A stretch of 64,000 nt of DNA from Collinsella sp. AF20-14LB. Its GTDB lineage: Bacteria; Actinomycetota; Coriobacteriia; Coriobacteriales; Coriobacteriaceae. Under the pieces are notes generated by a model. It was not told where the DNA came from and ran no database searches. It worked only from the letters and a program-made list of their open reading frames with translations. Of the stretch, positions 5,242 to 58,681 are shown piece after piece. Positions within the stretch are counted from its first letter, which is position 1, and every line of letters begins with the position of its first letter. The stretch is from the NCBI RefSeq assembly GCF_003459505.1, contig NZ_QRWD01000012.1, positions 9,810 to 73,809 of the forward strand. The letters are read 5' to 3'. A program made the translations under genes and the position numbers.

Positions 5242-5889
5242 CTAGAGCGTGCCGTAGATGCGGTCGCCGGCGTCGCCCAGGCCGGGAACGATGTAGGCTG
5301 CCTCGTTGAGATGATCGTCGATGGCGCACGTATAAATATGTACGCCGGAGTCCTTTTCGGTCAGCGACTTGAGACCCTCGGGCGCGGCGACGATGCACAG
5401 CATGCGGATGTCCTTGACACCGCGCTCGCGCAGGTAGCTGATGGCCATCTCGGCCGAACCGCCCGTGGCGAGCATGGGGTCGACGACCAGGCAGGTGCGC
5501 TGGTCGATATCCTTGGGCATCTTGCAGTAATACTCGTGCGGCTCGTGGGTAACCTCGTCGCGCTCCATGCCGATGTGGCCCACGCGAGCGGAGGGCACCA
5601 GGTCGAGGATGCCGTCGACCATGCCAAGGCCCGCACGCAGGATGGGCACGATGGCGAGTTTCTTGCCGGCGAGTTGTTTGAACGTGGCGGTAGTGATGGG
5701 GGTCTCGACCTCGACGTCTTCCATAGGCAGGTCGCGCATGGCCTCGTAGCCGTCAAAAAGCGCGAGTTCGCGCACGAGCTGGCGGAACTGGTTGGTGCCG
5801 GTGTTTTTGTCGCGCAGGATCGACAGCTTGTGCTGGACGAGCGGGTGATCGACAAGCGTCACACGGGACGCGTCGTAGGTGACGGTCAT
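5242..5889 (-). CDS. upp: uracil phosphoribosyltransferase
   Basis: Salvage enzyme that joins uracil to PRPP to give UMP in the cytoplasm; 215 residues with the ATG at 5889. The family segment [20 protein letters not shown] is present, as is the PRPP loop [12 protein letters not shown] and the C-terminal uracil-binding segment [15 protein letters not shown] chose MTVTYDAS as the start because it matches the usual N-terminus and follows a GAAAGGGG site; a longer reading frame upstream has no family similarity. It appears to be a single-gene unit upstream of the atp operon and in the same direction. Confidence 0.97.
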
Positions 5890-6012
5890 GGGTTGATTGC
5901 CCCTTTCGTTGCGGCCGCAAAACGGCCTTGCTGACAAGGCGCGCAGCAATGTTGCCGCCGAACGCCATGCATTAGTTTAGCGGTTTATTGTATCGAGCAG
6001 CCCATCGCAGCC

Positions 6013-7554
6013 CTACTGTGCGGTACTGAGCGAGCGCTTGACTGCATCACGCCAGCCCGCAAGGTTTTGCTCGCGGCGCTCGGCAGACATGTGGGGAAGG
6101 AAGGTCCTAACGATCTGGGCATTTTGCTCCAGCTCTTCTAGGTCTTCCCAATAGCCGACGGCAAGACCCGCCAAGTACGCGGCACCGATTGCCGTGGTCT
6201 CCACCGTCTCGCATTGCAGCACGGGGATATCCAGCAGGTCGGCCTGGAATTGCATGATGAACTCGTTGCGCGAGGCACCGCCATCGACAGACAGGCGCTC
6301 GATCGAAAGCCCCACGTCCTGCTCCATGGCGCGCAGCACGTCGTAGCTCTGATATGCCATGGATTCGCAGGCGGCGCGTACGATGGTCGCACGGCTCGAG
6401 GCGCCGGTCAGACCGCACACGATACCGCGGGCATGCGGGTCCCACCAGGGAGCACCCAAACCCGCAAAGGCGGGAACGAAGTAGCATCCCTCGTTGTCGT
6501 TAATCGAAGCGGCGAGTTGTGCCGCCTCGCTCACGCTCGAGATGATGCCCATGTTGTTGCGAAGCCAGTTCATGGTGGAGCCGGCAGCGAAGATGGAGCC
6601 CTCGAGTGCATAGCTGATCTTCCCGTTCGCAGCGATACCGATGGTGGAGACCAGGCCGTTCTTGGATTCGACGATCTCGTCGCCGGTGTTCATGAGCATA
6701 AAGCAACCCGTGCCATAGGTGTTTTTGGTCTGGCCGGGACGGAAACAGCAGTGACCGAACAGCGACGCCTGCTGGTCGCCCGCCACGCCCATGATGGGCG
6801 GCGTGTTGGTCATGATGTCGCTCGCGACGCGGCCGTAGTCGCCCGAGCTCCAGCGAACCTCGGGCATCATGGAACGTGGAACGTCAAAGAGCGCCAGCAG
6901 GTCGTCGTCCCAATCGAGCGTATGGATATTAAAGAGCGCCGTGCGGCTGGCATTGGTGTAGTCGGTGGCAAAGATCTGGCCACCGGTGAGGTTGTAGATG
7001 AGCCAGGTGTCGATGGTGCCAAACATGAGGTCGCCCGCCGCCGCGCTCTCGCGTGCGCCGTCGACGTTGTCGAGAATCCACTGCACCTTGGAGGCCGAGA
7101 AATACGGGTCGAGCGTGAGTCCCGTGCGGGAGCGCACCAACTCCTCGCAACCCTGTTCAACCAACGCGTCGATTGCCGGCGCGGTACGGCGGCACTGCCA
7201 TACGATGGCGTTATAGATCGGCTGACCGCTCACGCGGTCCCAGACCACCGTGGTCTCGCGCTGGTTGGAGATGCCGATGGCGGCAATGCGGTCGGAGTGG
7301 ATACCGCTCTTAAACTGGACTTCCATCATGACGGCGATTTGACTGGCGAGGACCGCCATGGGGTCTTGCTCTACCCAACCGGGACGCGGAAAACTGGTTT
7401 TGACGCTGCGACGCGCCTGCGCGACGATGCATCCGTACTCGTCGACGATGGTCGCAAGTACCGAGGTGGTGCCGCAGTCGAGCGCCATGATGTAGGAACC
7501 GCCAAAGTTAAACGAAGCATCTTCCATGCCCAGGCTGCCCAGATTCAACGACAT
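6013..7554 (-). CDS. glpK: glycerol kinase
   Basis: FGGY-family kinase that phosphorylates glycerol to sn-glycerol 3-phosphate; 513 residues. The N-terminal phosphate loop reads LDCGTTS at residues 25-31, where most glycerol kinases have LDQGTTS. The substrate segment SNQRETTVVWDR, the FGGY signature region VDGGASRNEFIMQFQADLL and the C-terminal QCETVETTAIGAAYLAG are conserved. About 20 residues precede the usual start, but the upstream ATG has a good GAAAGG site. It is separated by 13 bases from tsaC and probably co-transcribed with it. No glpF or glpD is next to it, so regulation is unclear. Confidence 0.95.
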   Translation of the reverse strand: MSLNLGSLGMEDASFNFGGSYIMALDCGTTSVLATIVDEYGCIVAQARRSVKTSFPRPGWVEQDPMAVLASQIAVMMEVQFKSGIHSDRIAAIGISNQRETTVVWDRVSGQPIYNAIVWQCRRTAPAIDALVEQGCEELVRSRTGLTLDPYFSASKVQWILDNVDGARESAAAGDLMFGTIDTWLIYNLTGGQIFATDYTNASRTALFNIHTLDWDDDLLALFDVPRSMMPEVRWSSGDYGRVASDIMTNTPPIMGVAGDQQASLFGHCCFRPGQTKNTYGTGCFMLMNTGDEIVESKNGLVSTIGIAANGKISYALEGSIFAAGSTMNWLRNNMGIISSVSEAAQLAASINDNEGCYFVPAFAGLGAPWWDPHARGIVCGLTGASSRATIVRAACESMAYQSYDVLRAMEQDVGLSIERLSVDGGASRNEFIMQFQADLLDIPVLQCETVETTAIGAAYLAGLAVGYWEDLEELEQNAQIVRTFLPHMSAERREQNLAGWRDAVKRSLSTAQ

Positions 7555-45276: not shown

Positions 45277-45489
45277 CGCCTCATCCTCGCTAATTCTTTA
45301 AGAAGCCTTTACGTTTCCGTGTAATTCCCGTCCATTATCGCGCAGGTCGCCGCTACATTGCGCAACACCGCCACGCACGCGCGTTATTATGGCTGGTTGT
45401 TGTGCGCAGTCACCAAATGCGGCGCATATCTTGGTAACAATCGGGTAAACCCCCGCTTTCGTAGGTTTTAGTTTGTGAGGAGTCTCAGC

Positions 45490-47790
45490 ATGTTCGCTGC
45501 CGCCATCTCGCTCGTCGGTCTTGCGGCGACCGTCTACCTTGTCTTGCGCGAGGCCAAGGCCATTCGCGCTCAGTCGGGCACCGTTGCCAAAAGCGCTCTT
45601 GGGTGGAGCGTCGCCTTCGGCCTGTTCCAGCTCTTTTTGATCATTTGGGGTGCCATTGGCCTCGTCGCCCAAAACGAGCCGCTCGCCTTTGTGATGCTCA
45701 TCCTGACCAACGCCATCCTCACCGGCTGCGCTTGGGCCAGCATCGCCCGCGACCGCATCGCCCCGCGCGTCTTTGCGTTCGCCGAGCCCGACGCCCCCGC
45801 CCCCACCGGCAAGCTCGCTCGCCTGCGCGGCGCCTTTGTGGGCAAACCGCTCGTCGCCGCCGTCCTGTGCCTGCTGCTCGCCGGCGTCTTTGCGCTGCTG
45901 GGCATGGAGGTCTCGTCCAACCACGACTTTACCTGGGTCTACCCCCTGTGTATCCTGCTCGAGTGGGCCATCATCACCACGCTCATGGCCGGCTTGTTCT
46001 TCCTGTTCCAGCGCCACGGCGCAGCCCCCGCCGTCCTGGCCTTTGCCCTCTTTATCCTGGGCATTGCCGAGTTCTTCGTCATCACGTTTAAATCCATGCC
46101 CATCCAGCCGGGCGACCTTTCGGCCATCTCCACCGCCGCCGCGGTCGCCGGCAACGGCTACACCTTCTCCATCTCGCTGTTCTGCGTGCTGTCCATGGGC
46201 TTTACCGCCATCGCCATGCTGCTGTGCGAGTACGCCGGCCTGGTGGCACCGCACCGCCAGAAGGGCGCCGCCAACGCCAAGCGCATGCTGCTCACCAACC
46301 TGCTCGTGGCGGTGCTATGCCTGGGCGGCGTGACCGCGCATGTCACGCTCATCGACTACTACAACACCCTCGGCATCACCGTCTACACCTGGCGTCCGCT
46401 CGAGAGCTACTGGCGCGAGGGCTACCTGCCTGCCTTTATTAGTGCGGCGCAGTCCATCAAGCCGCCCAAACCCGCCGACTACTCCGTCGACGATGCCAAG
46501 GCCACGCTCAAAAAGTACGCCAAGGCCTACGACAAGTCCGATGCCGCCAAGAGTGACGAGCGCACCGCCGCAAAGGAGCAATTCGACAGCGAGAAGCCCA
46601 CGGTCATCGCCATCATGAACGAGACCTTCTCGGATCTGTCGATCTACCAGAACATGCGCGCCGGCTACGAGGGTCCGCAGTACTTTAAGAGCCTGTCCAA
46701 CTGCCTCAGCCGCGGCAAGCTCTACGTGAGCGCCTACGGCGGCGGTACCGCCAATACCGAGTTTGAGTTTATGACCGGCAACTCCATGGCCAACCTGGGC
46801 TCGGGCGTGTACCCCTACACCATCTACAACATGGAAACGACTGGGAACCTGGCAGAGCAGTTCAAGTCGCTCGGATATTCCACCACGGCCATGCACCCCA
46901 ACCACGCAACCAACTGGAACCGCGAGAACGTCTACAAGGACTTTGGCTTTGACCAGTTCCTGTCCATCAACGACTTCCAGGGTGCCGATACCCTGCGCGG
47001 CATGGTGACCGACCAGGCAACCTACGACAAGATTCTTGAGCTGCTCGACCAGAACGCCGACCCGCAGTTTATCTTCGATGTGACCATGCAGAACCACTCG
47101 GGCTACGACACGGGCCTGCTGCCGGTCGACAAGCAGATGCACCTGAACATCGACACGACCGACCTGGACGCCAAGACCGTCGAGGACGGCACGCTCTCCG
47201 ATGTCGATGAATATGTCTCGTGCATCGAACAGTCCGACCAGGCGCTGCGCTACTTCCTCAACGCCCTGAGCAAGCTCGACCGCAAGGTAGTCGTGGTGTT
47301 CTGGGGCGACCACCAGCCGTTCTTCCCGTCCAAGTTCAATGACAAGTGGTTTACCGGCGAGGACGACGCCACCCACCAGGAGCGTTTGTGGCAGACCGAC
47401 TACATCATCTGGGCCAACTACGACGTTGCCGGCTGCGACCAGACGAGCGAGGTCGACGACCTGTCCACCAACTACCTGTCCACCCAGCTGATGCAACTGA
47501 TCGGCGCACCGCTGACCGACTACCAGAAAGCGCACATGACGCTGCGCGAGTCGCTGCCCGCCATCAACTCCGTGGGCTACGAGGACGCCAGCCTGCGCTG
47601 GGCGCTCTCCTCCAACGTCACCGGTGACGACGCCGCTGCCGCAGCCGCCACCAAGGCGCGCGAGGATTACGCCAAGATGCAGTACTACGAGATGTTCCGC
47701 GACGGCAAGAACGTGTATACCGAGCACTTCCAGACCGAGGCCAACGAGACCGACCCCAACCTGGCGCCGGGTACGACCAAGATCAAATAG
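45490..47790 (+). CDS. LTA-synthase-like membrane sulfatase-fold phosphoglycerol transferase
   Basis: Membrane enzyme of the LtaS/MdoB alkaline phosphatase superfamily, 766 residues from the ATG at 45490 (site GAGGAG). Seven or eight membrane helices (about 1-300) precede the extracellular catalytic domain. Catalytic and metal residues fit LtaS: Glu in IMNETFSDLSIY, Thr in GGTANTEFEFMTGN and Asp-His in FWGDHQPFF. It probably transfers glycerol phosphate to a wall or membrane polymer. It is convergent with the surface-protein operon, and a structured 3-prime element follows the stop. The 212 bases upstream show no gene. Confidence 0.9.
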   Translation: MFAAAISLVGLAATVYLVLREAKAIRAQSGTVAKSALGWSVAFGLFQLFLIIWGAIGLVAQNEPLAFVMLILTNAILTGCAWASIARDRIAPRVFAFAEPDAPAPTGKLARLRGAFVGKPLVAAVLCLLLAGVFALLGMEVSSNHDFTWVYPLCILLEWAIITTLMAGLFFLFQRHGAAPAVLAFALFILGIAEFFVITFKSMPIQPGDLSAISTAAAVAGNGYTFSISLFCVLSMGFTAIAMLLCEYAGLVAPHRQKGAANAKRMLLTNLLVAVLCLGGVTAHVTLIDYYNTLGITVYTWRPLESYWREGYLPAFISAAQSIKPPKPADYSVDDAKATLKKYAKAYDKSDAAKSDERTAAKEQFDSEKPTVIAIMNETFSDLSIYQNMRAGYEGPQYFKSLSNCLSRGKLYVSAYGGGTANTEFEFMTGNSMANLGSGVYPYTIYNMETTGNLAEQFKSLGYSTTAMHPNHATNWNRENVYKDFGFDQFLSINDFQGADTLRGMVTDQATYDKILELLDQNADPQFIFDVTMQNHSGYDTGLLPVDKQMHLNIDTTDLDAKTVEDGTLSDVDEYVSCIEQSDQALRYFLNALSKLDRKVVVVFWGDHQPFFPSKFNDKWFTGEDDATHQERLWQTDYIIWANYDVAGCDQTSEVDDLSTNYLSTQLMQLIGAPLTDYQKAHMTLRESLPAINSVGYEDASLRWALSSNVTGDDAAAAAATKAREDYAKMQYYEMFRDGKNVYTEHFQTEANETDPNLAPGTTKIK

Positions 47791-47818
47791 CGACTAGCTG
47801 CGAGTTCATAACTGAAAC

Positions 47819-47946
47819 GTCTGTCCGGGCGGAGGCATATAAGGTTCCCTGCTCGGACAGTCCTGCGCAAGACGGAGGCCACATTAAGTGGCCTCCTTTG
47901 CGTGCGGAACTCGCGATGAACCTTATATGCCTCCGCCCGGACAGAC
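47819..47946 (+). repeat. hairpin element A with 29-bp perfect arms
   Basis: Arms at 47819-47847 and 47918-47946 are exactly complementary over 29 bp (they start GTCTGTCCGGGCGGAGGC). The core holds the stem GGAGGCCAC/GTGGCCTCC and flanking GCGCAAGAC and GTGCGGAACTCGCGATG. It starts 28 bases after the stop of the LTA-synthase-like gene. Element B (48356-48482) repeats the core in the opposite orientation. Confidence 0.85.
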
Positions 47947-48002
47947 GCCTTGTTGTTGGAGCACGGCTTGTCATGGGGGTATCCGCTGAACATATATAAG
48001 TT

Positions 48003-48025
48003 GAAGGCCACATTAAGTGGCCTTC
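48003..48025 (+). repeat. short core hairpin copy
   Basis: GAAGGCCAC and GTGGCCTTC around ATTAA, followed by TTTGT: the central stem of elements A and B without their arms, directly before the first 62-nt array. It could act as a terminator. Confidence 0.7.
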
Positions 48026-48034
48026 TTTGTATTC

Positions 48035-48352
48035 GGAAAGTGTGTCCCGGAATCTGCCTTCGGAATGGGACGCAGTTTCCGCTTGAGGGCCTGTTGGGAA
48101 AGCGCATCCCACTTCAAGAGTAAATTCCGGGTCGCACTTTCCGCTAAGGCTCTCAACCGGAAAGTGCATCCCATTCCAAGCCTTAATTCCGGGACATAGT
48201 TTCCGGACAAGACATCAACCGGAAAGTGGGGACCACTCTGAGCGCCGATTCTGGGACACACTTTCCGAAACACCGCCCATCCGGAAAGCCCGTCCCGCTC
48301 TGAATACATCCGGGCATGGAATATCCGCTTATTAGGCCTTCCGTCAATAAAG
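48035..48352 (+). repeat. tandem hairpin array 1: five units, 62-nt period
   Basis: Units start at 48035, 48097, 48159, 48221 and 48283, exactly 62 bases apart. Each has a left arm like GGAAAGTGCATCCCA and a right arm like TGGGACGCAGTTTCC about 16 bases later, with another spacer of about 16 bases before the next unit, so arms can pair within or between units. The fifth unit is degenerate and runs into a tail, CTTATTAGGCCTTCC then TCAATAAAGGGGCGCC, shared with array 2 at 57724. No coding frame explains it. Arrays 1 and 2 have the same orientation and bracket the surface operon. Confidence 0.9.
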
Positions 48353-48355
48353 GGG

Positions 48356-48482
48356 CGCCCTCCCGAGCGGCGGGCTCGAAGTTCATCGCGAGTTCCGCAC
48401 GCAAAGAAGGCCACTTAATGTGGCCTTCGTCTTGCGCAGGACTGTAGAGCAGGGAACTTCGTGCCCGCCGCCCGGGAGGGCG
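48356..48482 (-). repeat. hairpin element B with 29-bp arms
   Basis: Arms at 48356-48384 and 48454-48482 (CGCCCTCCCG.GCGGCGGGC, two mismatches) are unrelated in sequence to those of element A but equal in length. The core, read on the minus strand, matches element A, with the stem changed to GAAGGCCAC/GTGGCCTTC on both sides. It starts 19 bases after the stop of the LAATG surface gene, so both elements sit downstream of a gene in the same sense. Confidence 0.85.
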
Positions 48483-48501
48483 TTGCGTTTAGAAGATGAA
48501 C

Positions 48502-49200
48502 CTAGCGCTTATCCCTCCGGGACAAAAGAAGTGCGGCTATAAATGCGATGATTGCAAGTGTCAGCAACACCAAAAGCAACGTGAGCGTGTTGTCGCCCGT
48601 TGCCGCCAGACCAAGCAAGCCGAGCTTCTTGCTGTCAGCAGACTGCACGGGAATCTTCTCGCCATCGTCCTCGGCGGTAATCTCCCAGCGAATGGTCTTG
48701 TTTGCGTCGGCAACCTCGTTGCCCACCGATGTCGGAACGTTTAGCTGCAAATTAAGCACCGTGCTGCCATCGCTCGTAAACGTGGCGATTTGCGTGGGAT
48801 AAGCGAACGCGCTGCCCGGTGTTCCTGTCTGGAGCCAACCTGCAGAGCCATCGCCCGCCGACGCCGTTAGGGTAATGGGCGACAGCAGGCGTGCCGTCTC
48901 GTGATCGACAACGGCACGCACAAACACGCGCACCTGGGACTTTACGCCCGTGGCACGAATCTCTATCTGCTGATCACGCACATCGCCAGGCATCAGATCT
49001 TTAAAGGCCAAAAACAGATCGGGCTCCCCCGAGGAGTCCGTCGCCCCCGAGACCGTCAGCTGACGCGCATTTCCGTCATAGGCAATCGCGGGAGTATCGG
49101 CAAACGCACGGGCGGGAACAGCGAGCGCGACCACGCAGAAAATGGCCGCGACCATGCAACGCAAGGAGCGCGCAACACCTTTACGAATCGGGAACGCCAT
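48502..49200 (-). CDS. secreted protein with LAATG sorting-type signal, last gene of the surface operon
   Basis: A 232-residue protein with a Sec signal peptide (cleavage likely after ARAFA, near residue 34), a beta-rich domain of about 140 residues and a C-terminal wall-sorting module: GLAATGDN, a hydrophobic helix (TLLLVLLTLAIIAFIAALLL) and the basic tail SRRDKR. The motif LAATG deviates from LPXTG, so a non-standard or class-specific sortase would be needed; none is visible here. It starts 2 bases after the preceding gene. I infer a wall anchor or base for the fibre-like proteins encoded upstream. Confidence 0.8.
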   Translation of the reverse strand: MAFPIRKGVARSLRCMVAAIFCVVALAVPARAFADTPAIAYDGNARQLTVSGATDSSGEPDLFLAFKDLMPGDVRDQQIEIRATGVKSQVRVFVRAVVDHETARLLSPITLTASAGDGSAGWLQTGTPGSAFAYPTQIATFTSDGSTVLNLQLNVPTSVGNEVADANKTIRWEITAEDDGEKIPVQSADSKKLGLLGLAATGDNTLTLLLVLLTLAIIAFIAALLLSRRDKR

Positions 49201-49202
49201 AC

Positions 49203-49784
49203 TTACGCACCTCCATGCGGCGGCACCAGCACGTCATTCTCGACCGAGCAACCCCATGCGTCGTGCACGGCCTCATCGGGCGTCGCCTGGACCGCCTGAG
49301 TGGAGATATCCACGACAAGATTGCGACCTTCGGTTGCCTTGAGCTCGGTAACCCTATTAATGAGCACGCCGGTTTCCGCGCCGGGAGCGACGGGCGACGT
49401 CCAGTAATAGAACCCGTCGCTCGCCTTAACCCAGTTATAAGCCGAGTTCGCGCCCGAGGCATCAGCCACGCTCCACGCAATCTCGTAATCCGCCTCACCC
49501 TTCGGCTCCTCCTTCGGCTCATCCCACAGGCGTGCGCCATCCTGGTCCTGCCAGTAGATATCCACTGCAGCACGAATATAGGCGGGCGCGGTACCCGTGT
49601 TCTTCGCCTTGACATCGCTTTTCACTTTGCCGTTGAGCGTTTCCTGAACCGATGGCGTCACCGACCCGATGCCGAACTGGTTGACCAGCACGCCCGTAAC
49701 CGAAAGCCAGGCCAACGTGCCTGCCGTACCGGCCAGGAGGATAACCCCCACCAGCAAGGCGATGATGCGCTTGCGCTTGGACAT
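49203..49784 (-). CDS. TasA/camelysin-like secreted protein 3
   Basis: A 193-residue protein with a SipW-type leader: basic start MSKRKRI, a hydrophobic helix ending LAGTAGTLAWLSVTG and then a soluble beta-rich domain. The pattern VKAKNTGTAPAYIRAAVDIYWQD resembles the conserved strand of TasA/camelysin and of the paralogue two genes upstream. It has no anchor of its own. Its ATG lies one base after the stop of the giant surface gene, so they are translated together. TasA-type proteins build extracellular fibres in Bacillus; that role here is inferred from the leader and from the SipW gene. Confidence 0.8.
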   Translation of the reverse strand: MSKRKRIIALLVGVILLAGTAGTLAWLSVTGVLVNQFGIGSVTPSVQETLNGKVKSDVKAKNTGTAPAYIRAAVDIYWQDQDGARLWDEPKEEPKGEADYEIAWSVADASGANSAYNWVKASDGFYYWTSPVAPGAETGVLINRVTELKATEGRNLVVDISTQAVQATPDEAVHDAWGCSVENDVLVPPHGGA

Positions 49785-49785
49785 G

Positions 49786-52700
49786 CTAATCCTCCTTCTT
49801 TGCTACGTTGCCGTTGCTCCAAACGTTATGGGCACGCTTGCTGCCGTCGATCCATTTGTCGTTCACACGCGTGTTCGTGCAGGTGAACGTGGCATCGTTC
49901 GCGCTCGATGCAGCGGAGATAGTCGCCTGCGCCTTATCGCCCGGCTGCTTGCCAGGGACGCCGATTTTGTTGCTGTAGCGCCATGCCCACGCTGAGTCCT
50001 CCTCGACGGTGTAGATACCCGCCGGGACCGCAAGCTCGATAGCGCCGGAGTACCAGGCGGAACCGTCCTTCAGCTGCGCATCCGATGACACCGTTACCTC
50101 AACCGTACGCTCCTCCAAGGCGTTGCCGTCCATGCCGGCCCGGGAAACCTTGAAGCGGAACGTCTTGCCCTTCGCCCAGTTATCCTGGGTTTGCTTGACG
50201 ATCTTGAGCGTATGCGTAGCGGCGAAATCGAACACCGCATTGCCATCGCTCTGAGTGCCGTCGCCCGTGAGCTTGTAGTCCAAACGATTCGTCAGCTCAA
50301 ACGAGCCCTCGCCTGAACCCGAACTGTAAAGCGAGACATACTTCCCGTTGACAGGCGCAGGAGTCTGGCCAGGAAGACCATAGCCCACGCGGTCAACGTG
50401 CACCGTCAGTTGCGTGCCCATGAAGGGCTTTGCAAAGCAAGCCTTGAACGGCGCCTTATCGCTCTTGTCATCTATCGTGTTCGCGGCATTGGGATCAAGC
50501 AACCACTTGAGCTGCCCGGTCACATTCTTAGGGCTCGCATCGTCCGATGTGTCGTTAGCGACGACCCTATACGTCACCGGATACAAATCCATGTTGGCTG
50601 TAACCGGTTTACCCTTGAAGTCGCTCCACGCCACAGCTTTGTCGCCATTAACCCACTGCCACTCCAAGAACAACTCCTTCAAGCTGCTATCCGCTCGCTC
50701 GCCCAGGAATGCGACGATTGCGGAGTAGGCTTCGGGATCGTAGGCCACTTCCTTTGGCTCCATGACGGGTTCACCCTTGTCGTCATAGACCGGGTTGCCG
50801 TTCTCGTACATCTTGGGCACCTTAACTGTCTGAACAAAGCCGGCATTGCCATCCTGGCCACGCAGAACACTCGTATCGTTCGGGTCTACCGTAGCGGTGT
50901 AGATGACGTTGCCTTCGGTGTCGTGATAGCGCACTTTAAGCGGCGTCTTCTTGTACACCGCAGTGTAGGTCACGCTCTCAAAGGGCTCGCTGCCCTCGAG
51001 GGGATACTTCTCATCGTCAGTCATCAGGGTGTACTGCCCGTCATTGACATAATCGCGCGACCAGCCGACAAAGTCGTACTTGGTGCCGTCAATGCCCACA
51101 ACCTCCTTGACAGCCTTGACCTCAAGAGAGATCTGGTCGCCGGAATCAGTACGGCCGAGACCGCGGACAAGAGCAGGATTCGCGAGATTTAAGTCGATGT
51201 TCGATTGAACGGTAACCAGGCTGGGACGGTAGACCGGGTACAGCTCCATGGGGGCCCTGACCACGGTAGAAGCACTCACCATGCGGATACCCTCCGACCA
51301 AGCGACATAGCCCTTGACAGGTGCCGGCTTGGCTTCCGTCCAGCCCACGAAGGCGTTGAACGCACCTCCTGTATCCCTATCGATAGCGCTGACGTCATAA
51401 GTGGGCTTCGGGATGCCGCCATCAAGGTTGCCGAGCATATCGCCTTGCTGAGCAACTTTGCCGTCAACATCTTTGGCATTGAGATGGTACACGACCGCCA
51501 ACGGCGAATAGTACGCCACAAATGTATAGGCCCCGCCGGGTTCCACCTGATGGGAATACGAGTTATCGCCGTTAGGTTCGATCTCTTCAACTTCGCCATT
51601 CGGAAGCTCGATCTCAACCTTCTGCAACTTATACAGCTCACCGCCTGCTTTATAAACCGGAGTCGTGACGTCAGGGGTCACCGTTGCCGTAGCAGGGTCG
51701 GTGCCCGCGTTGATAACGGGATCGATGTCGTACCTAGGCACATTGACCTTGTCCGTGCCCTTAAAACCGGCGCGATACAGGTTGGTGGTGTACCTAACAT
51801 CGTACTTCGCGTACACCGGATAGGCATCCTGCCACTGGGTGACCTTAAAATCTGGTTTCACCAGATACGGTTCGGCCTTATCCGGGTCAGAAGTGGTGAA
51901 GGAATCGCCGGCGACGTCGTAGATATAGTTCCAGACGGCAGAATCCTTCTGGACCTCGGCAGTCGAAATCCAGCCCAAGAACTTATAACCCGGCACCGCC
52001 ATCTCCGCATCGGTCGGAGAAGACTCAAGGGTCAAGGGGCTTTCATAAGAACCAGTTAGCCCGTCCTGCGGCTTTCCTTTTGCCTCAACCGAGGTGTTCA
52101 CATGCGGGTAGTAATACGTGAACGTCGGATCCGCCCCGTTCACCTTGGCCTGCAGCAAGTTACTCTCATAGCGCCGCGTGGCAGTCCTCACGACATTATC
52201 GCCCTTGTTGTAGAAATTAACGTCCGTGGTAATCATCGCGCGAACGTAGTACTTCTTATCTGTACGCACCATGCTCTCGATGGGATTTTTCACATATGTC
52301 CAATATTCACCATCGCGCTCAAGCGTCCAGAAATTCAGGCGATAGCGATCATTCACCGGTTTGACCGTTACGTTCAGCGAAGCCGAAGTCCAAGTATCGC
52401 TTAGCGTTGCAGCGCCTGGAAAATCGGTATCGGCATAGAGGTTTTTTAGAGTATCGGCTCCCGTATCGTTTTTAACGTTGTGCGAGTACGCGTTAAGGGG
52501 ACTCACGACAAGGGTTTCCTTCGTGAAGCGCGTGCCACACGTTTCATAACTATCCTTTATACCGTGGTCAACATGCTCCGGGCCCCAGTGGACGACGTTT
52601 TCACGCACGAAGGTACTACCGACGTTTTCCTCAAAGGGCGTTTGATAGCGATTCCAAACGGAACAAAGTAGCTTGCTGTCCGTAAACTCATGGTTGGTAT

Positions 52701-55257
52701 AAGCCCGAACGTAATAATCCACTCGGTACTCAAAGCGGGCGATGTAGGTATGCGGCGCGGTTAAATCGACATCGGCGGGGAGCGTATAGCTGGGGTCGCG
52801 GCTTACGCGCACCTCGAGCGGGGCATCCTCGGTTCCCTTGTTTTCATACCAACCCAGGAAACGATAGCCGTCGGGCAGCTGGCCCTCCTCGGATATAGCT
52901 TTACCGGATACGTCGAGCACCTGTACGGTATACGCGCTTGTGCCATCTTCTGCAGTCTCAACCTTAACGTCAGTTTTGCCCACACCGTCGCGCCGAGTCT
53001 GATCGTCGGTTGCATCCTGCTCATTGCCCTCAAACACCGTCATGATGTTCGACACATAGTCGGTGTACACCGGATAAAAATCGGTAGGGCCAAGCACAGT
53101 GATCTCGGTGCCGGCAGGATAGAACGCACCGGCGTTTTTTAACTCGGCAAGCTCAGGCGAGGTGATGGCCGCGTAACCGCCATGCATCCCGGCCTCGCCA
53201 CTCGGCTGCGTCGTCCAACCGATAAAGGTGGCGCTGGCAGAAAGAGTGCCGCGGTCCGCAGGGGCAGCCGGCGTTAAACCGACGCCATAGCGGTACCAGT
53301 CCGTCGACTTGTCGTGCTCCTCGCCGCTCTGCCACGCGAGCGTCTCGCCCTTGACGTTATAGAACAGTACCTGCGCCTCGTACGAAGCAATAAACAGGTC
53401 GTTGCCCTTAAAGGCCTCGGCCCCCTTCGCGTTATCGGCGGTATAGCTCGACGTTATCTCGTGCGCTTCGTTCTTCTGGACCTGCTTGCCAGCCTTAACG
53501 GCATCGGCATCGGTCTTGCCGTTAAACCAGGCGTTATCGGCATCGATACGGTTCACATTGACTCCGGGCTCACGGAACCAGCCCATAAAGCGGTAGCCGC
53601 CGTTGGCCTCGGTCAAACCCTCTGGCTTTGCGGAGGTATCCTGCTTAAACGTTACCGATGTATCGCCCTGGGCCAGGCCTTGGGCCGTTCCCGCCAGCAC
53701 GGCGCTCACGGCAAAGGCGTACGGATCCGAGGTCGCCTGGTCTTTGCCAAGTTTGGTCTTCTCGATTGTCGCGGTGCCCGCACCGGGAAAATCGATCGTC
53801 GCCTTAACGCTCTGGCCATGCACAGGAATATTCAGCTTGTAATCCATCGCCCACTCATTGAAGTGCGAGCCACCCAAGGCCCCGTTGTTAGCAGTCGAGC
53901 GCTTGGTGCCGGCACAAAAGTCGTAGTCGTGCTCTTCCCACAGCTCGCGCGTGGTGTAGCGCTCGTCATCCCATGGACCATAGCCATCACCCTTGGTGGT
54001 GTCATCGCCGCCAAACGAGGGGATTTTCTTTTTGGCAGGGTTGCCCTGGCTGTTGCCAGAAAGGCTCACGCTCGGCTTAAAGTAGCACTCGGTGACCGTG
54101 GCATCATCCTTGTTGGCACGCGCGGCAATTCCGCCCAGGTTCACATCGTTTTGAATGATGGGGATCACGGCGATGGGATTGTACTGACGCGAGCTCAAGT
54201 CACCCGCAAAATGGCTTCGAACGAGCTCGTTGCCCTTTTCGGTTAGAATACGACCCGCCAAGCCACCCGTCCACGCGCGCGTCACGGCGACGACGCCCAC
54301 GTACGACGCGGCATAGCTGTAGCACTGCGCCGTCGAGAAGCAGTCGATAATCTTGGCCTCGCCCGCCATGCAGCCCACAAAACCCGAGGCGTACACGTTG
54401 TTGCCGCCCAGGGCGCCAATGGCCACGTCGTACTTATTGGTGACGTCGGTCATGCCCTTCTCGGCAATCGAGCCGTCGTCCTTACGCGTCGGCGTCACGC
54501 GACAGTACTCGATAGTCGAGTTCTTAACGTAGCCGGCAAACGCCGCCATATACAGACCCTCACCGCCGAGCGCCTGCACGCCCGAGGTCGTATTGTTGAC
54601 GGCACGGCCGCCACGGACCTCGCAGTTGTAGAGGGTGCAGCCGTCGAGCTCGCCGGCGATGAGACCGCCCTCAAAGCCTGCGTTGGTAATGAGGTTGAGA
54701 GCATTGTTGGCGCAGGTCACGTGCAGCGTGCTCTCCATGACCATAACGTTTTCGAAACGCGTTTTGACGGCCTTGCCCACGATAATGCCACCGCGGAAGT
54801 CCGCCCACACGTTGGCGTCCTTGACCAGGAAGTTTTTGATGGTGGCGCCGTTGGTCTCGGCAAAAAATCCCGTATCGCGCTCGGGGTCAAAAGCGTCTTT
54901 ATCGTAGTTCAGGCCCTCAACGGCGTGGTTTTGACCATCGAACACGCCCTTAAACGGATGCTCCTTGTTGCCAAACGACAGATGCTTAACGGTGTCTGCA
55001 ACGATGGTTTTCATGTCGTCGCTGTCGAGCTCAATGTCGTTATCGAGATAAACGTGCCAGCCGGACGTATCGCGCTCGCGCGACAGCGCCACACACGACA
55101 AAAAGTCAGCCTCGTTTTTGATGTGGAATTCGATTTTGGCCTCGGGCACATCCTCGGCATGCACCACCGTTGGCAGCGCCATAACGCAGCAAAGGGCAAT
55201 CGCTGCGACGGCAACCAGCCTGCTAAGCATACCCCGGTTCATATTCTTGATCTTCAT
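49786..55257 (-). CDS. 1823-residue repeat surface protein with InlB-type and GLUG-like repeats
   Basis: Large secreted protein with a Sec leader cut near VVHA (residue 34). Residues about 100-400 contain GLUG-like turns (GGLIAGELDGCTLYNCEV, GFVGCMAGEAKIIDCFST), suggesting a beta-solenoid. From about 500 to 1550 there are at least seven F-x-GW units (YRFMGWFREPG, ATFIGWTTQPSG, YRFLGWYENKG, YKFLGWISTAEV, NAFVGWTEAKP, YDFVGWSRDYV) of the Listeria-Bacteroides/InlB B-repeat type. The last 150 residues resemble Cna-B/DUF5979 folds (TFRFKVSRAG, AGIYTVEED). It ends KKED with neither sorting motif nor membrane helix, so attachment must come from partners. Adhesion is inferred. Confidence 0.85.
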   Translation of the reverse strand: MKIKNMNRGMLSRLVAVAAIALCCVMALPTVVHAEDVPEAKIEFHIKNEADFLSCVALSRERDTSGWHVYLDNDIELDSDDMKTIVADTVKHLSFGNKEHPFKGVFDGQNHAVEGLNYDKDAFDPERDTGFFAETNGATIKNFLVKDANVWADFRGGIIVGKAVKTRFENVMVMESTLHVTCANNALNLITNAGFEGGLIAGELDGCTLYNCEVRGGRAVNNTTSGVQALGGEGLYMAAFAGYVKNSTIEYCRVTPTRKDDGSIAEKGMTDVTNKYDVAIGALGGNNVYASGFVGCMAGEAKIIDCFSTAQCYSYAASYVGVVAVTRAWTGGLAGRILTEKGNELVRSHFAGDLSSRQYNPIAVIPIIQNDVNLGGIAARANKDDATVTECYFKPSVSLSGNSQGNPAKKKIPSFGGDDTTKGDGYGPWDDERYTTRELWEEHDYDFCAGTKRSTANNGALGGSHFNEWAMDYKLNIPVHGQSVKATIDFPGAGTATIEKTKLGKDQATSDPYAFAVSAVLAGTAQGLAQGDTSVTFKQDTSAKPEGLTEANGGYRFMGWFREPGVNVNRIDADNAWFNGKTDADAVKAGKQVQKNEAHEITSSYTADNAKGAEAFKGNDLFIASYEAQVLFYNVKGETLAWQSGEEHDKSTDWYRYGVGLTPAAPADRGTLSASATFIGWTTQPSGEAGMHGGYAAITSPELAELKNAGAFYPAGTEITVLGPTDFYPVYTDYVSNIMTVFEGNEQDATDDQTRRDGVGKTDVKVETAEDGTSAYTVQVLDVSGKAISEEGQLPDGYRFLGWYENKGTEDAPLEVRVSRDPSYTLPADVDLTAPHTYIARFEYRVDYYVRAYTNHEFTDSKLLCSVWNRYQTPFEENVGSTFVRENVVHWGPEHVDHGIKDSYETCGTRFTKETLVVSPLNAYSHNVKNDTGADTLKNLYADTDFPGAATLSDTWTSASLNVTVKPVNDRYRLNFWTLERDGEYWTYVKNPIESMVRTDKKYYVRAMITTDVNFYNKGDNVVRTATRRYESNLLQAKVNGADPTFTYYYPHVNTSVEAKGKPQDGLTGSYESPLTLESSPTDAEMAVPGYKFLGWISTAEVQKDSAVWNYIYDVAGDSFTTSDPDKAEPYLVKPDFKVTQWQDAYPVYAKYDVRYTTNLYRAGFKGTDKVNVPRYDIDPVINAGTDPATATVTPDVTTPVYKAGGELYKLQKVEIELPNGEVEEIEPNGDNSYSHQVEPGGAYTFVAYYSPLAVVYHLNAKDVDGKVAQQGDMLGNLDGGIPKPTYDVSAIDRDTGGAFNAFVGWTEAKPAPVKGYVAWSEGIRMVSASTVVRAPMELYPVYRPSLVTVQSNIDLNLANPALVRGLGRTDSGDQISLEVKAVKEVVGIDGTKYDFVGWSRDYVNDGQYTLMTDDEKYPLEGSEPFESVTYTAVYKKTPLKVRYHDTEGNVIYTATVDPNDTSVLRGQDGNAGFVQTVKVPKMYENGNPVYDDKGEPVMEPKEVAYDPEAYSAIVAFLGERADSSLKELFLEWQWVNGDKAVAWSDFKGKPVTANMDLYPVTYRVVANDTSDDASPKNVTGQLKWLLDPNAANTIDDKSDKAPFKACFAKPFMGTQLTVHVDRVGYGLPGQTPAPVNGKYVSLYSSGSGEGSFELTNRLDYKLTGDGTQSDGNAVFDFAATHTLKIVKQTQDNWAKGKTFRFKVSRAGMDGNALEERTVEVTVSSDAQLKDGSAWYSGAIELAVPAGIYTVEEDSAWAWRYSNKIGVPGKQPGDKAQATISAASSANDATFTCTNTRVNDKWIDGSKRAHNVWSNGNVAKKED

Positions 55258-55260
55258 AGG

Positions 55261-55908
55261 CTAGTTCGCCTCCGGCCAACCCACAACGTCAAGTACGTCG
55301 AGGGCGGTATCGCTTGTCTGCTGGTTTTTGGCCTGCACGGCCTGAACATCGATATCGAGCTTGAATGAGCCGCCGCGCGCGGCATCGTGGTAGTCGCCCA
55401 CAAATCGCAGCGAGTCCATAAGGCTTTCCGTCATGGCGCCGGGGTCGAGCATGCCGCCACGCCCGGCCAATCCACGGTAGTAGTACCACCCATCGCCGCC
55501 GTCGATCCACGGGGACCCCTCGCCCGCGTCCACATGAAACGCAACGTTGCCCGAGGCATCCGCGCACGAGCCGTCGGGTGCCACTGACTTCATGCGCAGG
55601 CGCGCGCGAACGTACTCAGGCTGCGAGCCGACGTTCTCCACGCGCACAATGCGGCTGATGTCAGAACCCCCGGCTTTGGTGTCGGGATAGTCCCCGTGCT
55701 CGTTGGGCTCAAACGGAATCTCCTCGCCCTGCTCGTTTAGGGTGTATTCGCAGACTCGTACCTTCACGCTGCCAAACGATAGAACGTTGTTCGCCGGAAC
55801 CATATCAACAGTAAAAGCCAGCGTGCCGCACAGGCACGCCAGGGCCAACAGCGCCATCGCGGCAAGCGCCAAGGTGCGTTTCTGATTGTCGGAAAGATTA
55901 TTGAGCAT
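55261..55908 (-). CDS. TasA/camelysin-like secreted protein 2
   Basis: A 215-residue protein from the ATG at 55908. The leader LSDNQKRTLALAAMALLALACLCGTLAFTVD fits the SipW class in having a long helix and a cut site near TLA. The mature part has RIVRVENVGSQPEYVRARLRM, the same strand as in the paralogue at 49203, and GWYYYRGLAGRGG near the middle. A reading frame extends 64 codons further upstream but overlaps the previous gene and looks spurious. Its ribosome site is weak. It is followed 3 bases later by the giant surface gene. Confidence 0.78.
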   Translation of the reverse strand: MLNNLSDNQKRTLALAAMALLALACLCGTLAFTVDMVPANNVLSFGSVKVRVCEYTLNEQGEEIPFEPNEHGDYPDTKAGGSDISRIVRVENVGSQPEYVRARLRMKSVAPDGSCADASGNVAFHVDAGEGSPWIDGGDGWYYYRGLAGRGGMLDPGAMTESLMDSLRFVGDYHDAARGGSFKLDIDVQAVQAKNQQTSDTALDVLDVVGWPEAN

Positions 55909-56005
55909 TACGTTCGCCAGTCGTCGATAAAAAGGGGGACCGAGATCCCGACCCGAAAATGGGGATGGGGAGCGGGCCGGGATCTCGGTAGAGGGGGTGG
56001 GATTA

Positions 56006-56692
56006 CTACAGGTCCTTAGCCCAATTCTTGGCAGCAGCCAAAGCAGACGCAGACGAACCCTCAGCGGTATTGTCTGCCGCGTAAATGAAGCAGTTGACAT
56101 CCATCGTGGCAGAATTGGCGAAATCCTTTTGCTCGGTGTCCTTGGGCGTAGTCACCTGGCTGAACAGCTCGCCAGTCCACTTATCCTCATTCTTGCTGGC
56201 AATAAGCGGGGTAGCCTCGGTTCCTTCGCCAACATAAACGAAAAGGCCACCGAGATAATGAGTCGGCTCGCCCTCAACGGCGGTCGCATCAACGGCCTTC
56301 CAGCCAGAGTTAATGGTGAAGTAAGTCGTCTTGGAATGATCGGCCCCGGCAGACGCCGTCTTGTTGTTCACGAAGACGTACACATATGCATCCTCGGATC
56401 CCTTGCCGATACCGACATTAGGATTCTTGGGTACAGACACGCCAGGGGCGAGCTTAGAGTCCTTAACCCATTTGGTCTCGGTCAGGTTGCCGTTGACCTT
56501 ATTGTTATCATCCGGAAGCGGCTGATTCGGATGGTCGGGATCGGTAGTGGGCTTGTTGATGCCCGCAGTGGTGAAGTTGTTGGTCAGGCTCGACTGCGCC
56601 GTCAGCCAGGCGTAGGTACCCACGCCGGCAGCCAGCACCAACAGCAGCAGGGCGGCAATGATGCCGTAGCGCTTTTTCTTCTTGTTTTCCAT
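56006..56692 (-). CDS. TasA/camelysin-like secreted protein 1, probable main fibre subunit
   Basis: A 228-residue protein; ATG at 56692 after GAAAGGAAGAG, the best ribosome site in the operon. The basic start MENKKKKRYG leads into the helix IIAALLLLVLAAGVGTYAWL, a SipW-class signal peptide. The mature domain is rich in Asn, Lys, Thr and Asp, with a central strand DAYVYVFVNNK and CFIYAADNT near the end, like camelysin/CalY proteins. Strong translation and first place after the peptidase gene suggest the most abundant subunit (inference). Confidence 0.82.
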   Translation of the reverse strand: MENKKKKRYGIIAALLLLVLAAGVGTYAWLTAQSSLTNNFTTAGINKPTTDPDHPNQPLPDDNNKVNGNLTETKWVKDSKLAPGVSVPKNPNVGIGKGSEDAYVYVFVNNKTASAGADHSKTTYFTINSGWKAVDATAVEGEPTHYLGGLFVYVGEGTEATPLIASKNEDKWTGELFSQVTTPKDTEQKDFANSATMDVNCFIYAADNTAEGSSASALAAAKNWAKDL

Positions 56693-56762
56693 CGTTCTCT
56701 TCCTTTCGAGAATCGTCTTCCCCGGCAACGGCCCCTACCGCCGCCGACGTTTTTCCCTGCCG

Positions 56763-57320
56763 CTATGAACGCCGCTCCCTCGCATGCACGCGGGTATGCT
56801 TGCCCGCAGGCTCGTCGGGAACCATCCGATCGAGCACTATCGACGCCGTGATCAGCAGCGCCAGAACGGCCACCACAACAAGCAAACCGGGCATCGTCGT
56901 GCAATATGCGTTAACGAAGCCCAGGTAAGGGACACAAAAAGAAACAGTGCCGATAACACTCGAAAAAGGCGTGTGCTCGGCATCGTGCATGATGCTTCCG
57001 TCTGCATTTTTGTTCGCAATTCCCTGCGTGCCGATCATCTGCGCCACAGGGTCGATCTGATACACCTGGTGCGTCACCACGGCGCCGTCCGATCGGTAAA
57101 AGGTTGCATTGTCGCCCACGGCAATATCCGTTGGCTCAACCTGGCGGACAAACACCATGGAGCCAACGGGAAGCTCGGGTTCCATAGAGCCCGAAAGCAC
57201 AGCAAAGGGCGTGTATCCAAATGCGCGAGGCACAAAAGAAACAACGGCAAGGGCTATGACAAGCGCGAACGCCAAGCTACTCAAAAGCGTAATAAATCGT
57301 TTGAGTCTACGCGCCGTCAA
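56763..57320 (-). CDS. sipW: SipW-type signal peptidase I
   Basis: Membrane signal peptidase of the ER/SipW class, 185 residues, with N-terminal (10-32) and C-terminal (143-163) membrane helices. The nucleophile is Ser45 in LSGSMEPEL, and the general base position holds His84 in VVTHQV instead of the Lys of ordinary bacterial SPase I, which is diagnostic for SipW. It is the first gene of the surface operon and should process the three short secreted proteins encoded downstream. A promoter-like sequence lies at 57447-57475. Confidence 0.93.
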   Translation of the reverse strand: MTARRLKRFITLLSSLAFALVIALAVVSFVPRAFGYTPFAVLSGSMEPELPVGSMVFVRQVEPTDIAVGDNATFYRSDGAVVTHQVYQIDPVAQMIGTQGIANKNADGSIMHDAEHTPFSSVIGTVSFCVPYLGFVNAYCTTMPGLLVVVAVLALLITASIVLDRMVPDEPAGKHTRVHARERRS

Positions 57321-57446
57321 AGTGATAATTCATCCCCCTTGAGGACCTATTCGACCCATCCAAAGGTCAGCAAGTTTCAACAGGAACCGCAAGGCGCTTG
57401 AAAAGTGAGTTCGAAATAAGCCAATTTGGAATCTTTTCCTAATAAA

Positions 57447-57488
57447 AACATAGCGATGTGCTACATATTTTTCAATGTTTTATCGCTA
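57447..57488 (-). promoter_or_regulatory. candidate promoter and inverted repeat for the surface operon
   Basis: On the minus strand TTGAAA (57470-57475) and TATGTT (57447-57452) are 17 bases apart, 127 bases before sipW. The inverted pair TAGCGAT (57451-57457) and ATCGCTA (57482-57488) brackets the promoter and could be an operator. The surrounding 57380-57660 is clearly richer in A and T than the neighbourhood. Confidence 0.5.
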
Positions 57489-57618
57489 AATGCTACTTAT
57501 TTTGGCGTAAGTGGTCATTTATCCCCAAATTAGTCTGTTTTATCCAATACTTACGACTAACCCCCTACGCAACTTCCCCATAGAAGGTTCGTTTTTTGCG
57601 AAACTAAAATAATGGTAC

Positions 57619-57627
57619 CCCCCCCCC
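57619..57627. repeat. poly-C tract of nine in the upstream region of the surface operon
   Basis: Nine consecutive C on the plus strand lie about 150 bases upstream of the candidate promoter. Tracts of this kind can change length by slippage. No gene is seen in 57321-57723. Confidence 0.6.
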
Positions 57628-57723
57628 ACATTAAAACAAACTACTGGAAGTGTCATTTATTTCCGACCCCCCTTTGCCGGAGTTTTATGACAGCCCCATG
57701 TAGTTCGCAGCCCATAATCCTCT

Positions 57724-58048
57724 GAGAACCGTGTCCCAGAATTCGCTTGCGAAATGGGATGCGGTTTCCGCTTGTGGCCCCGTTGGGAAACCACATCCCA
57801 CTCCGATCGCAAATTCCGGATCGCACTTTCCGCCAAGACCCTCAACCGGAAACGGCATCCCATTTCTCGGCCGAAAACTGGGATGCGGTTTCCACAGAGC
57901 CCCTCAACGGGAAACCGCATCCCATTCCAAAGGCAAATTCCGGGACGCAGCTTCCGCAACCCCACCCATCCGGAAATCCCATCCCACTCCGCACACATCC
58001 GGGCATAGAACAATCAGCTTATTAGGCCTTCCATCAATAAAGGGGCGC
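57724..58048 (+). repeat. tandem hairpin array 2: five units, 62-nt period
   Basis: Units start at 57724, 57786, 57848, 57910 and 57972, again exactly 62 bases apart, with arms such as GGAAACCGCATCCCA and TGGGATGCGGTTTCC. The right arm of unit 3 is a perfect complement of the left arm of unit 4, showing that pairing between neighbours is possible. The tail CTTATTAGGCCTTCC then TCAATAAAGGGGCGCC matches array 1. It lies between the start region of the surface operon and the flavodoxin terminator. Confidence 0.9.
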
Positions 58049-58060
58049 CCTCGTGTCACG

Positions 58061-58123: not shown

Positions 58124-58681
58124 CTACTCGCCCAGCACGGCCTTTTTGGCGGCTGCGGTCATGTTGTCCAGGTCCTCCTTGGTGGGGTGATCCTTTGCGG
58201 CAACCCAGTTGTCGAGCAGCATCTTAAATCGGGCGTTTTCGGGATCTTGCTCGAGCATGGCCTCGTAGCGCTGCTTAACCGCGGGACCCATCTTGCCCTG
58301 GCACATCGCCCAGCCCGCAAGCTCGGCATCCTCGGCCAGATTGGAAGTTACGCGGTCGACAATCTGCTGGTAATAGCTCTGGTCGGCCCCAAAGCCGCAG
58401 GTGCCAAACAGGAACACGCGCTTGCCGTGCAAGGCGGAGAGCAACGCCGCCACCGAGGGCGTGCAGGCACCCTTGTCGCACCAAAAACCGACAAGCACCG
58501 TATCGGCAGCGCAGGCACCCTCTGCCTCGTGCGCGACCTGCTCCGGATCTGCATCATCGCTCAGCGCGGCGGCATGGATAAACTCGACGCCTGCAGCCTG
58601 CAGGGCGCGCTTGATCGCCCCCGAAACCATCCTGGTATTACCGCTCTTGCTGTTAACCACCATAGAGCATGTCATAGTCAC
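58124..58681 (-). CDS. flavodoxin-family protein
   Basis: FMN-binding electron carrier of 185 residues. The phosphate loop reads VVNSKSGNTRMVSGAI in the first 22 residues, VLVGFWCDKGACTPSVAALL and LFGTCGFGADQSYYQQI supply the isoalloxazine-side loops. The extra C-terminal 50 residues are helical and charged. The start is GTG at 58681 or ATG at 58675. Redox partner and role are unknown; it has its own terminator and no operon partner. Confidence 0.85.
   Translation of the reverse strand: MTMTCSMVVNSKSGNTRMVSGAIKRALQAAGVEFIHAAALSDDADPEQVAHEAEGACAADTVLVGFWCDKGACTPSVAALLSALHGKRVFLFGTCGFGADQSYYQQIVDRVTSNLAEDAELAGWAMCQGKMGPAVKQRYEAMLEQDPENARFKMLLDNWVAAKDHPTKEDLDNMTAAAKKAVLGE

Follow-up and report, generated by a model that had tools for sequence, protein, structure and literature searches.

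A strictly phased ladder of alternating motifs in Collinsella, a putative extragenic DNA-binding platform

A 64,000-nucleotide stretch of the Collinsella sp. AF20-14LB genome (contig NZ_QRWD01000012.1, positions 9,810 to 73,809; hereafter the window) contains two arrays of short repeats with complementary arms, located on either side of an operon of putative surface proteins. What are these arrays, and what might they do? An earlier note on the window had described five units of exactly 62 nt per array and a common tail, and had offered three ideas: a multi-site protein-binding array, a switchable RNA or a recombination target. Our analysis suggests that the arrays are probably extragenic DNA-binding platforms, a repeat family of one Collinsella clade as far as searched, which would mark or shape the ends of genes. 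The protein-binding idea fits best because the repeats carry two conserved blocks, are phased at 31 bp and exhibit no detectable selection for folding.

Architecture and conservation of the arrays

The 62-nt period and the unit starts proved exact in both arrays. However, the true repeat is a motif of about 15 nt that recurs once every 31 bp with its orientation flipped, so that two motifs make up one 62-nt unit. A weight matrix built from the arms identified nine strictly alternating motifs per array, with eight of eight steps measuring 31 bp in each; the motif at 48221 drops below the cut-off when the refined matrix is used. Each array is closed by a tenth, decayed arm.

48035..48359, no strand assigned: array 1, nine motifs (48035+, 48066-, 48097+, 48128-, 48159+, 48190-, 48221+, 48252-, 48283+), a decayed arm and a tail at 48328-48359
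57724..58049, no strand assigned: array 2, an apparent copy of array 1, nine motifs (57724+, 57755-, 57786+, 57817-, 57848+, 57879-, 57910+, 57941-, 57972+), a decayed arm and the same tail at 58018-58049

The sequences CTTATTAGGCCTTCC and TCAATAAAGGGGCGCC of the common tail occur within the window only at 48328/48344 and 58018/58034. Unit by unit, the two arrays match each other in sequence order, except that unit 3 of array 1 is slightly nearer to units 2 and 4 than to its counterpart. Since 225 of 322 positions are identical in ungapped register, the twins look like copies of one whole array. Chance does not produce this arrangement: alternating motif pairs spaced by 31 bp numbered 178 in 454,237 real bases, taken from stretches chosen for holding arrays, versus none in 9,084,740 bases shuffled in 30-base blocks.

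A set of 266 non-redundant arms gave the motif GGAAA-S-YRYR-T-CCC-R, followed by a weak N-W-N-T. The GGAAA and TCCC blocks are about one helical turn apart, and since the motifs alternate every 31 bp, or three turns, they would all face one side of the helix. Among 235 aligned array pairs, mismatches affect 3-14% of comparisons at the positions of these two blocks (0-4 and 10-13), 23-39% in the arm middle (5-9) and 14-34% elsewhere, with positions 16 and 18, directly past TCCC, at 14-15%. The arm middle thus drifts as freely as most spacer positions. Within 218 arms, the purine or pyrimidine class is nevertheless kept in 96-100% at positions 6, 8, 9 and 14, where variation is nearly all C/T or A/G, and in 89% at position 7.

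Spacing is similarly rigid. Head-to-head steps measure 31 bp in 156 of 160 cases, and tail-to-tail steps in 115 of 133, with a further 16 at 30 bp (131 of 133 together); seven additional steps link motifs of like orientation. These figures come from a direct count of steps and not from alignment gaps. In pairwise array alignments, internal gaps of 61-62 bases appeared 18 times and gaps of 1-4 bases 462 times, the latter being put down to the alignment of diverged arrays.

Array length changes by whole 62-nt dyads. At one convergent locus compared across 21 genomes, the array contains two motifs in 13 genomes, four in two, six in two and eight in two, and the remaining two genomes hold nine motifs (irregular) and three motifs (the last arm decayed). 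The smallest state, found in those 13 genomes, is one dyad. The intergenic gap measures 101/112, 162/175, 236 or 297 bp, growing in steps of 61-63 bp.

Spread within Collinsella and genomic placing

The earlier note had named a covariance-model search for further genomes as a test, and this search did find the units elsewhere. Of 65 genomes of the bacterial family, 22 gave matches to a model of the head-to-head hairpin, 46 nt long (E <= 0.001, run with the stricter filters that apply above 40 genomes). All 22 belong to one genus, where they represent 22 of the 43 Collinsella genomes, and none was found in the other five genera. An exact-arm pattern gave 30, 37, 51 and 44 matches in genomes G001, G007, G029 and G006, compared with a single match in all four for the reversed control. 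Similarly, a two-arm pattern allowing up to one mismatch gave 20-40 matches per genome in eight further or partly overlapping array-bearing genomes, versus none for its control among the matches listed. As judged by sequence, and as far as searched, the family marks a tight clade of Collinsella, because the gene next to one array shows 92-100% identity across 21 array-bearing genomes but no more than 63% in array-free Collinsella genomes; the 22nd array-bearing genome (G038, 72% complete) yielded only a weak match to that gene.

Twenty loci were collected by means of the flavodoxin-domain gene that adjoins array 2: 11 from C. aerofaciens, four from Collinsella sp. and five from uncultured Collinsella. 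An array of at least two motifs was present in the fetched stretches of 16; of the remaining four, two end about 150 bases or less from the gene and two show a single motif. No array was found at nine loci in array-free genomes. Viral contigs (searched with the exact pattern) and phages gave no match to the array pattern, and the sole match among plasmid records was a 900-kb C. aerofaciens record. On that record, which is labelled a plasmid, an IS3-family transposase gene adjoins an array (L247; NZ_OY725717.1, 495320-496159), and an IS110-type transposase gene (L123, 5574-6539) adjoins another; the arrays may attract insertion sequences.

Comparison of the flanks sorted 71 arrays of at least three motifs into 17 groups, and three further genomes yielded 29 stretches with dyads, 25 of which fell at loci placed before. 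There are at least about 18 distinct array loci, four of them placed late, a figure that is a tally of loci met rather than a census. None of 51 arrays overlaps a called gene. Where both neighbours were known, 21 of 49 arrays lay between convergent genes, compared with 23 of 152 gaps of 150-1000 bp that lack an array (Fisher p = 1.2e-4, a value that is too small because arrays recur across genomes). In addition, 9 of the 26 array loci scanned include a tRNA or tmRNA gene, in several cases directly adjoining the array, so that some contexts called divergent are actually downstream of an RNA gene.

Arrays bracket a surface-protein operon in the window, but this does not hold in general: across the roughly 18 loci, flanking genes are mostly housekeeping or metabolic. 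Among 30 flanking proteins scanned, 26 had a Pfam match (one, to a SIS domain, under the cut-off). They include hsp70, homoserine dehydrogenase, a class II tRNA synthetase, acetate kinase, trigger factor, FeoB and HPr, as well as thiamine synthase, xanthine-dehydrogenase-like proteins, an IS110 transposase and an MmeI-type enzyme. At the hsp70 locus, which recurs in other genomes, the array (L097, 4973-5080) and the gene (5344-7236) are so placed that a promoter-side position is possible. An isolated motif, GGAAACCACGTCCC, also occurs about 5 kb from dnaA (G007 1746083, G029 748419, G006 1729505), and is probably a chance match in a conserved gene.

Binding platform, mobile repeat or RNA

How might such arrays work? 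We propose that a dimeric or oligomeric chromosomal protein, or a topoisomerase, would bind successive motifs along one face of the DNA. As has been proposed for the bacterial interspersed mosaic elements (BIMEs) discussed below, bound arrays would then mark or shape gene ends; they might, for instance, limit read-through or handle supercoils where genes converge. The twin arrays in the window, which look like the outcome of whole-array duplication, bracket an exchangeable cargo, a role that we consider secondary and not family-defining. A more ambitious version, which we offer only tentatively, is a clade-specific chromosome-organising system in which a putative protein stacks on one DNA face over motifs that alternate in orientation and are phased by three turns, with an array length set by whole dyads and at about 18 intergenic addresses, some of which became borders for surface-gene exchange. 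In either version the array could serve as ready bait DNA for a protein that reads the motif.

Several observations weigh against a binding platform at gene ends. Most of the 235 aligned pairs come from locus 1, as we call the array locus in the window and its counterparts in other genomes, and include comparisons of array 1 with array 2; the counts are not independent, as loci recur in related genomes; and two of 12 groups (9 and 11, two arrays each) do not show the arm middle varying more than the blocks. The motif set was collected by a weight matrix, which favours conserved letters. The extragenic placing was scored on codon-score gene calls, which miss RNA genes and small genes, and the array group at hsp70 lies about 264 bp upstream of that gene, away from a gene end. 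Dyads with swapped arms fold about 0.5 kcal/mol worse, although not significantly (p = 0.18 and 0.44), arms in true pairs agree a little more often than arms paired at random at the majority of the variable positions, again not significantly, and in most genomes of the 21-genome locus the final dyad is almost fully self-complementary. Finally, origin-proximal clustering, which would have hinted at a role in the nucleoid, fell short of significance (Kolmogorov-Smirnov p = 0.17, n = 18, mean distance from dnaA 0.40 of the half-chromosome, with fractions read off listings and L157 and L163 taken as one locus). In three near-complete genomes all placed arrays lie within 0.74 of the half-chromosome from dnaA, and the four later loci lie at 0.19, 0.19, 0.66 and 0.87.

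The closest known counterpart is BIME-2 of enterobacteria, described in the available parts of PMC2817692 and PMC6379681 as extragenic clusters of short alternating units with regular spacing that bind DNA gyrase. The Collinsella arrays share the extragenic placing, the regular spacing and the alternating orientation of that definition (PMC2817692, in the part available). They differ in that the 15-bp unit is non-palindromic and the spacing is fixed at 31 bp. Stretches round exact-pattern matches yielded at least 56 motifs in 10 arrays of G007, at least 73 in 12 arrays of G006 and at least 86 in 13 arrays of G029; BIMEs and repetitive extragenic palindromes (REPs) usually exceed 100 copies per genome, and binding of gyrase, IHF or Pol I is a further trait of theirs. 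REPs are described, in the parts available, as 20-40-bp palindromes with a GTAG/CGTC-type tag (PMC3733652, PMC2817692) that flank RAYT genes. We sought these features and did not file the arrays as BIMEs because none was found: folding of 119 distinct arms is no stronger than that of shuffles (-0.69 versus -0.78 kcal/mol), none of the 119 starts or ends with GTAG, GTGG or CGTC, and none of 12 fetched Y1 transposase loci presents a gene flanked by two units, the best having one array on one side. By analogy, the arrays probably work like BIME-2 at the DNA level, as extragenic arrays of alternating sites. If this holds, they would represent an independent BIME-like system without palindromic units, which would help to single out phasing and alternation, not the hairpin, as the BIME features that matter.

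Other systems are less similar. The REPINs of Pseudomonas fluorescens SBW25, as far as covered in the part of PMC3116915 available, are inverted doublets of a 16-mer that also form tandem clusters; their arms lie 71 or 110 bp apart and exhibit compensatory changes, whereas the Collinsella arms are 31 bp apart with no compensation detected. CRISPR arrays likewise have a constant repeat and spacer length, but the Collinsella repeats alternate in orientation and their spacers diverge by drift (compared by repeats alone). Sites of the nucleoid-occlusion proteins Noc and SlmA are likewise scattered short protein sites. Noc and SlmA sites are absent from the terminus, whereas the origin bias of the Collinsella arrays is non-significant, and we know of no phased inverted arrays among them. 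Within the open-access literature, which leaves most subscription journals outside, no title or abstract opening gave an account of such a repeat in Collinsella or Coriobacteriales, and the words Collinsella and Coriobacteri are absent from the main texts of PMC12306157 and PMC3733652.

The alternating order and extragenic placing would also fit a mobile REP- or REPIN-like element, in which dyads are copies moved by a RAYT-type Y1 transposase and then multiplied in place. Consistent with this, 35 of 51 arrays have an even number of motifs, 31 of them starting with a + motif and ending with a - motif, and Y1 transposases are present in eight of ten genomes tested. Nevertheless, we regard such an origin as unlikely. 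Y1 genes occur in array-bearing genomes and also in two of four array-free genomes tested, and no motif lies near 11 of 12 Y1 loci (12 of 23 matches in 10 genomes were fetched with flanks). At the twelfth locus the gene is short (167 aa), of IS200 type to judge by its size, and one of four copies of equal score in G012. The arms lack both an internal palindrome and the REP tags, and movement appears to be slight because 25 of the 29 loci of the three further genomes are at known places. Two of the G012 Y1 genes were fetched, and a four-motif array (L079, 2259-2366) lies on one side of the 167-aa gene.

A third possibility is an RNA element: transcribed hairpins, or a switch between pairing with an arm's own partner and with its neighbour, that would protect or end transcripts. 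Whole arrays do fold far better than shuffles (z -9.0 and -5.3), some arrays at convergent loci sit a few bases past stop codons (46 and 8 bp in L109), and the slight excess of true pairs and the near-perfect last dyad mentioned above lean in the same direction. However, a strong whole-array fold is to be expected because every arm matches one consensus. The earlier note had held that arms stay complementary and had looked to covariation across genomes. The arms are indeed complementary, but selection for pairing is not supported, since the pairs do not covary: across 68 head-to-head hairpins the covariation score was 0.133 versus 0.150 in shuffles, and stem column 6 is unpaired in 37 of 68. 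Head-to-head neighbours are no more alike than arms of other arrays (3.34 versus 3.36 of 6 positions); tail-to-tail neighbours reach 3.58, as do 185 of 2000 shuffles. In sets of 109 and 94 non-redundant dyads, folding is equally good or better when the spacers are shuffled or swapped, with no significant advantage for the real dyads, and the window has no Rfam match at gathering scores. As a positive control, a neighbouring element of about 130 nt gave a score of 0.324 versus 0.155 that no shuffle equalled, with 19 of 44 pairs changed on both sides, in a set of 12 hand-chosen sequences for which one measure (further pair types) fell below shuffles.

With no covariation, free arm middles and GGAAA and TCCC held, the RNA reading, including the switch, is not supported, and we consider it quite unlikely. 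Complementary arms are more simply a by-product of each arm holding to one consensus. A binding platform remains the preferred explanation, and these arrays illustrate that a ladder of hairpins with strong predicted folds may occur where selection for folding is undetectable. They also provide an example, from a bacterium of the human gut, of a site array with strict phasing.

Variable cargo and neighbouring elements

The remaining idea of the earlier note, a recombination target, would make the arrays borders at which cassettes are exchanged, lost or gained. It bears chiefly on the genes surrounding the twin arrays at locus 1.

45475..47790, + strand: sulfatase-family gene (PF00884), flanking array 1
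48502..57320, - strand: cargo between the arrays, an operon of putative surface proteins
56763-57320, - strand: signal-peptidase-like gene (PF10502) inside the cargo
58124..58681, - strand: flavodoxin-domain gene (PF12641), flanking array 2

The cargo includes five further genes, and the four scanned had no Pfam match. We tallied the DNA between the conserved sulfatase and flavodoxin genes in 24 distinct genomes (the window, 20 named loci, G006, G007 and G029). The surface operon was present in six, a different, 1,338-aa gene with a fibronectin type III domain in six (L032 among the carriers), both in one and no cargo in eight, the stretch being too short in three. Among the six operon carriers, the whole interval lies in one stretch only in the window; in the others the stretch or contig ends sooner. 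Arrays of at least three motifs occur on both sides in 8 of the 13 cargo carriers. L028 lacks array 2, G007 has one motif of array 1 and L041 one motif of array 2, and only one side is visible in L031 and L032. The eight cargo-free loci have a single array, consisting of just one motif in L046. Excision between the twin arrays is not claimed, as the single array of cargo-free loci mostly keeps the sulfatase-side end of array 1 and its other end is unlike array 2.

Arrays thus adjoin variable DNA at some loci. A second locus exhibits a similar presence and absence of genes between arrays, and the flanking genes keep their order at 158 of 238 gaps with an array, versus 649 of 831 gaps of at least 100 bp elsewhere. 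The 62-nt steps in copy number and the strain-variable cargo stand, whereas a dedicated exchange mechanism is a candidate only, and as a general account of the arrays we find it improbable. Other loci are single arrays between housekeeping genes, and the twins are just 70% identical, which offers little for homologous recombination. L028, with the operon but no array 2, and G007, with one motif of array 1, indicate that cargo does not depend on twins. Transposase genes beside arrays may account for part of the gene-order difference, and exchange via the conserved flanking genes explains locus 1 equally well. Decay of coding sequence, which the earlier note had named among its refuting cases, can practically be dismissed: open reading frames of 84-336 aa are readable through array 2, but they overlap in several frames on both strands, the 31-bp step is no multiple of 3 and the mismatch profile tracks the motif.

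Two further hairpins lie beside array 1. A short GGCCAC...GTGGCC hairpin at 47989-48034, with AACATATATAAGTTG 5' of it, runs into the array and recurs at the same array 1 end in most strains compared. The second is the element of about 130 nt that served as the positive control.

47818..47947, + strand: hairpin element copy 1, beside array 1, with strong covariation
48356..48482, - strand: hairpin element copy 2, inverted, on the other side of array 1
L036 10593-10735, L112 9793-9935, L126 10092-10234 and L095 8299-8441: copies between array 2 and the flavodoxin gene

This element has no Rfam match in the window. It has a conserved core of about 70 nt and outer arms of about 30 nt that vary between copies and remain self-complementary, which makes it a good candidate for a structured RNA or terminator family. 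The four genomes with a copy next to the flavodoxin gene (L036, L112, L126 and L095) all carry the 1,338-aa gene.

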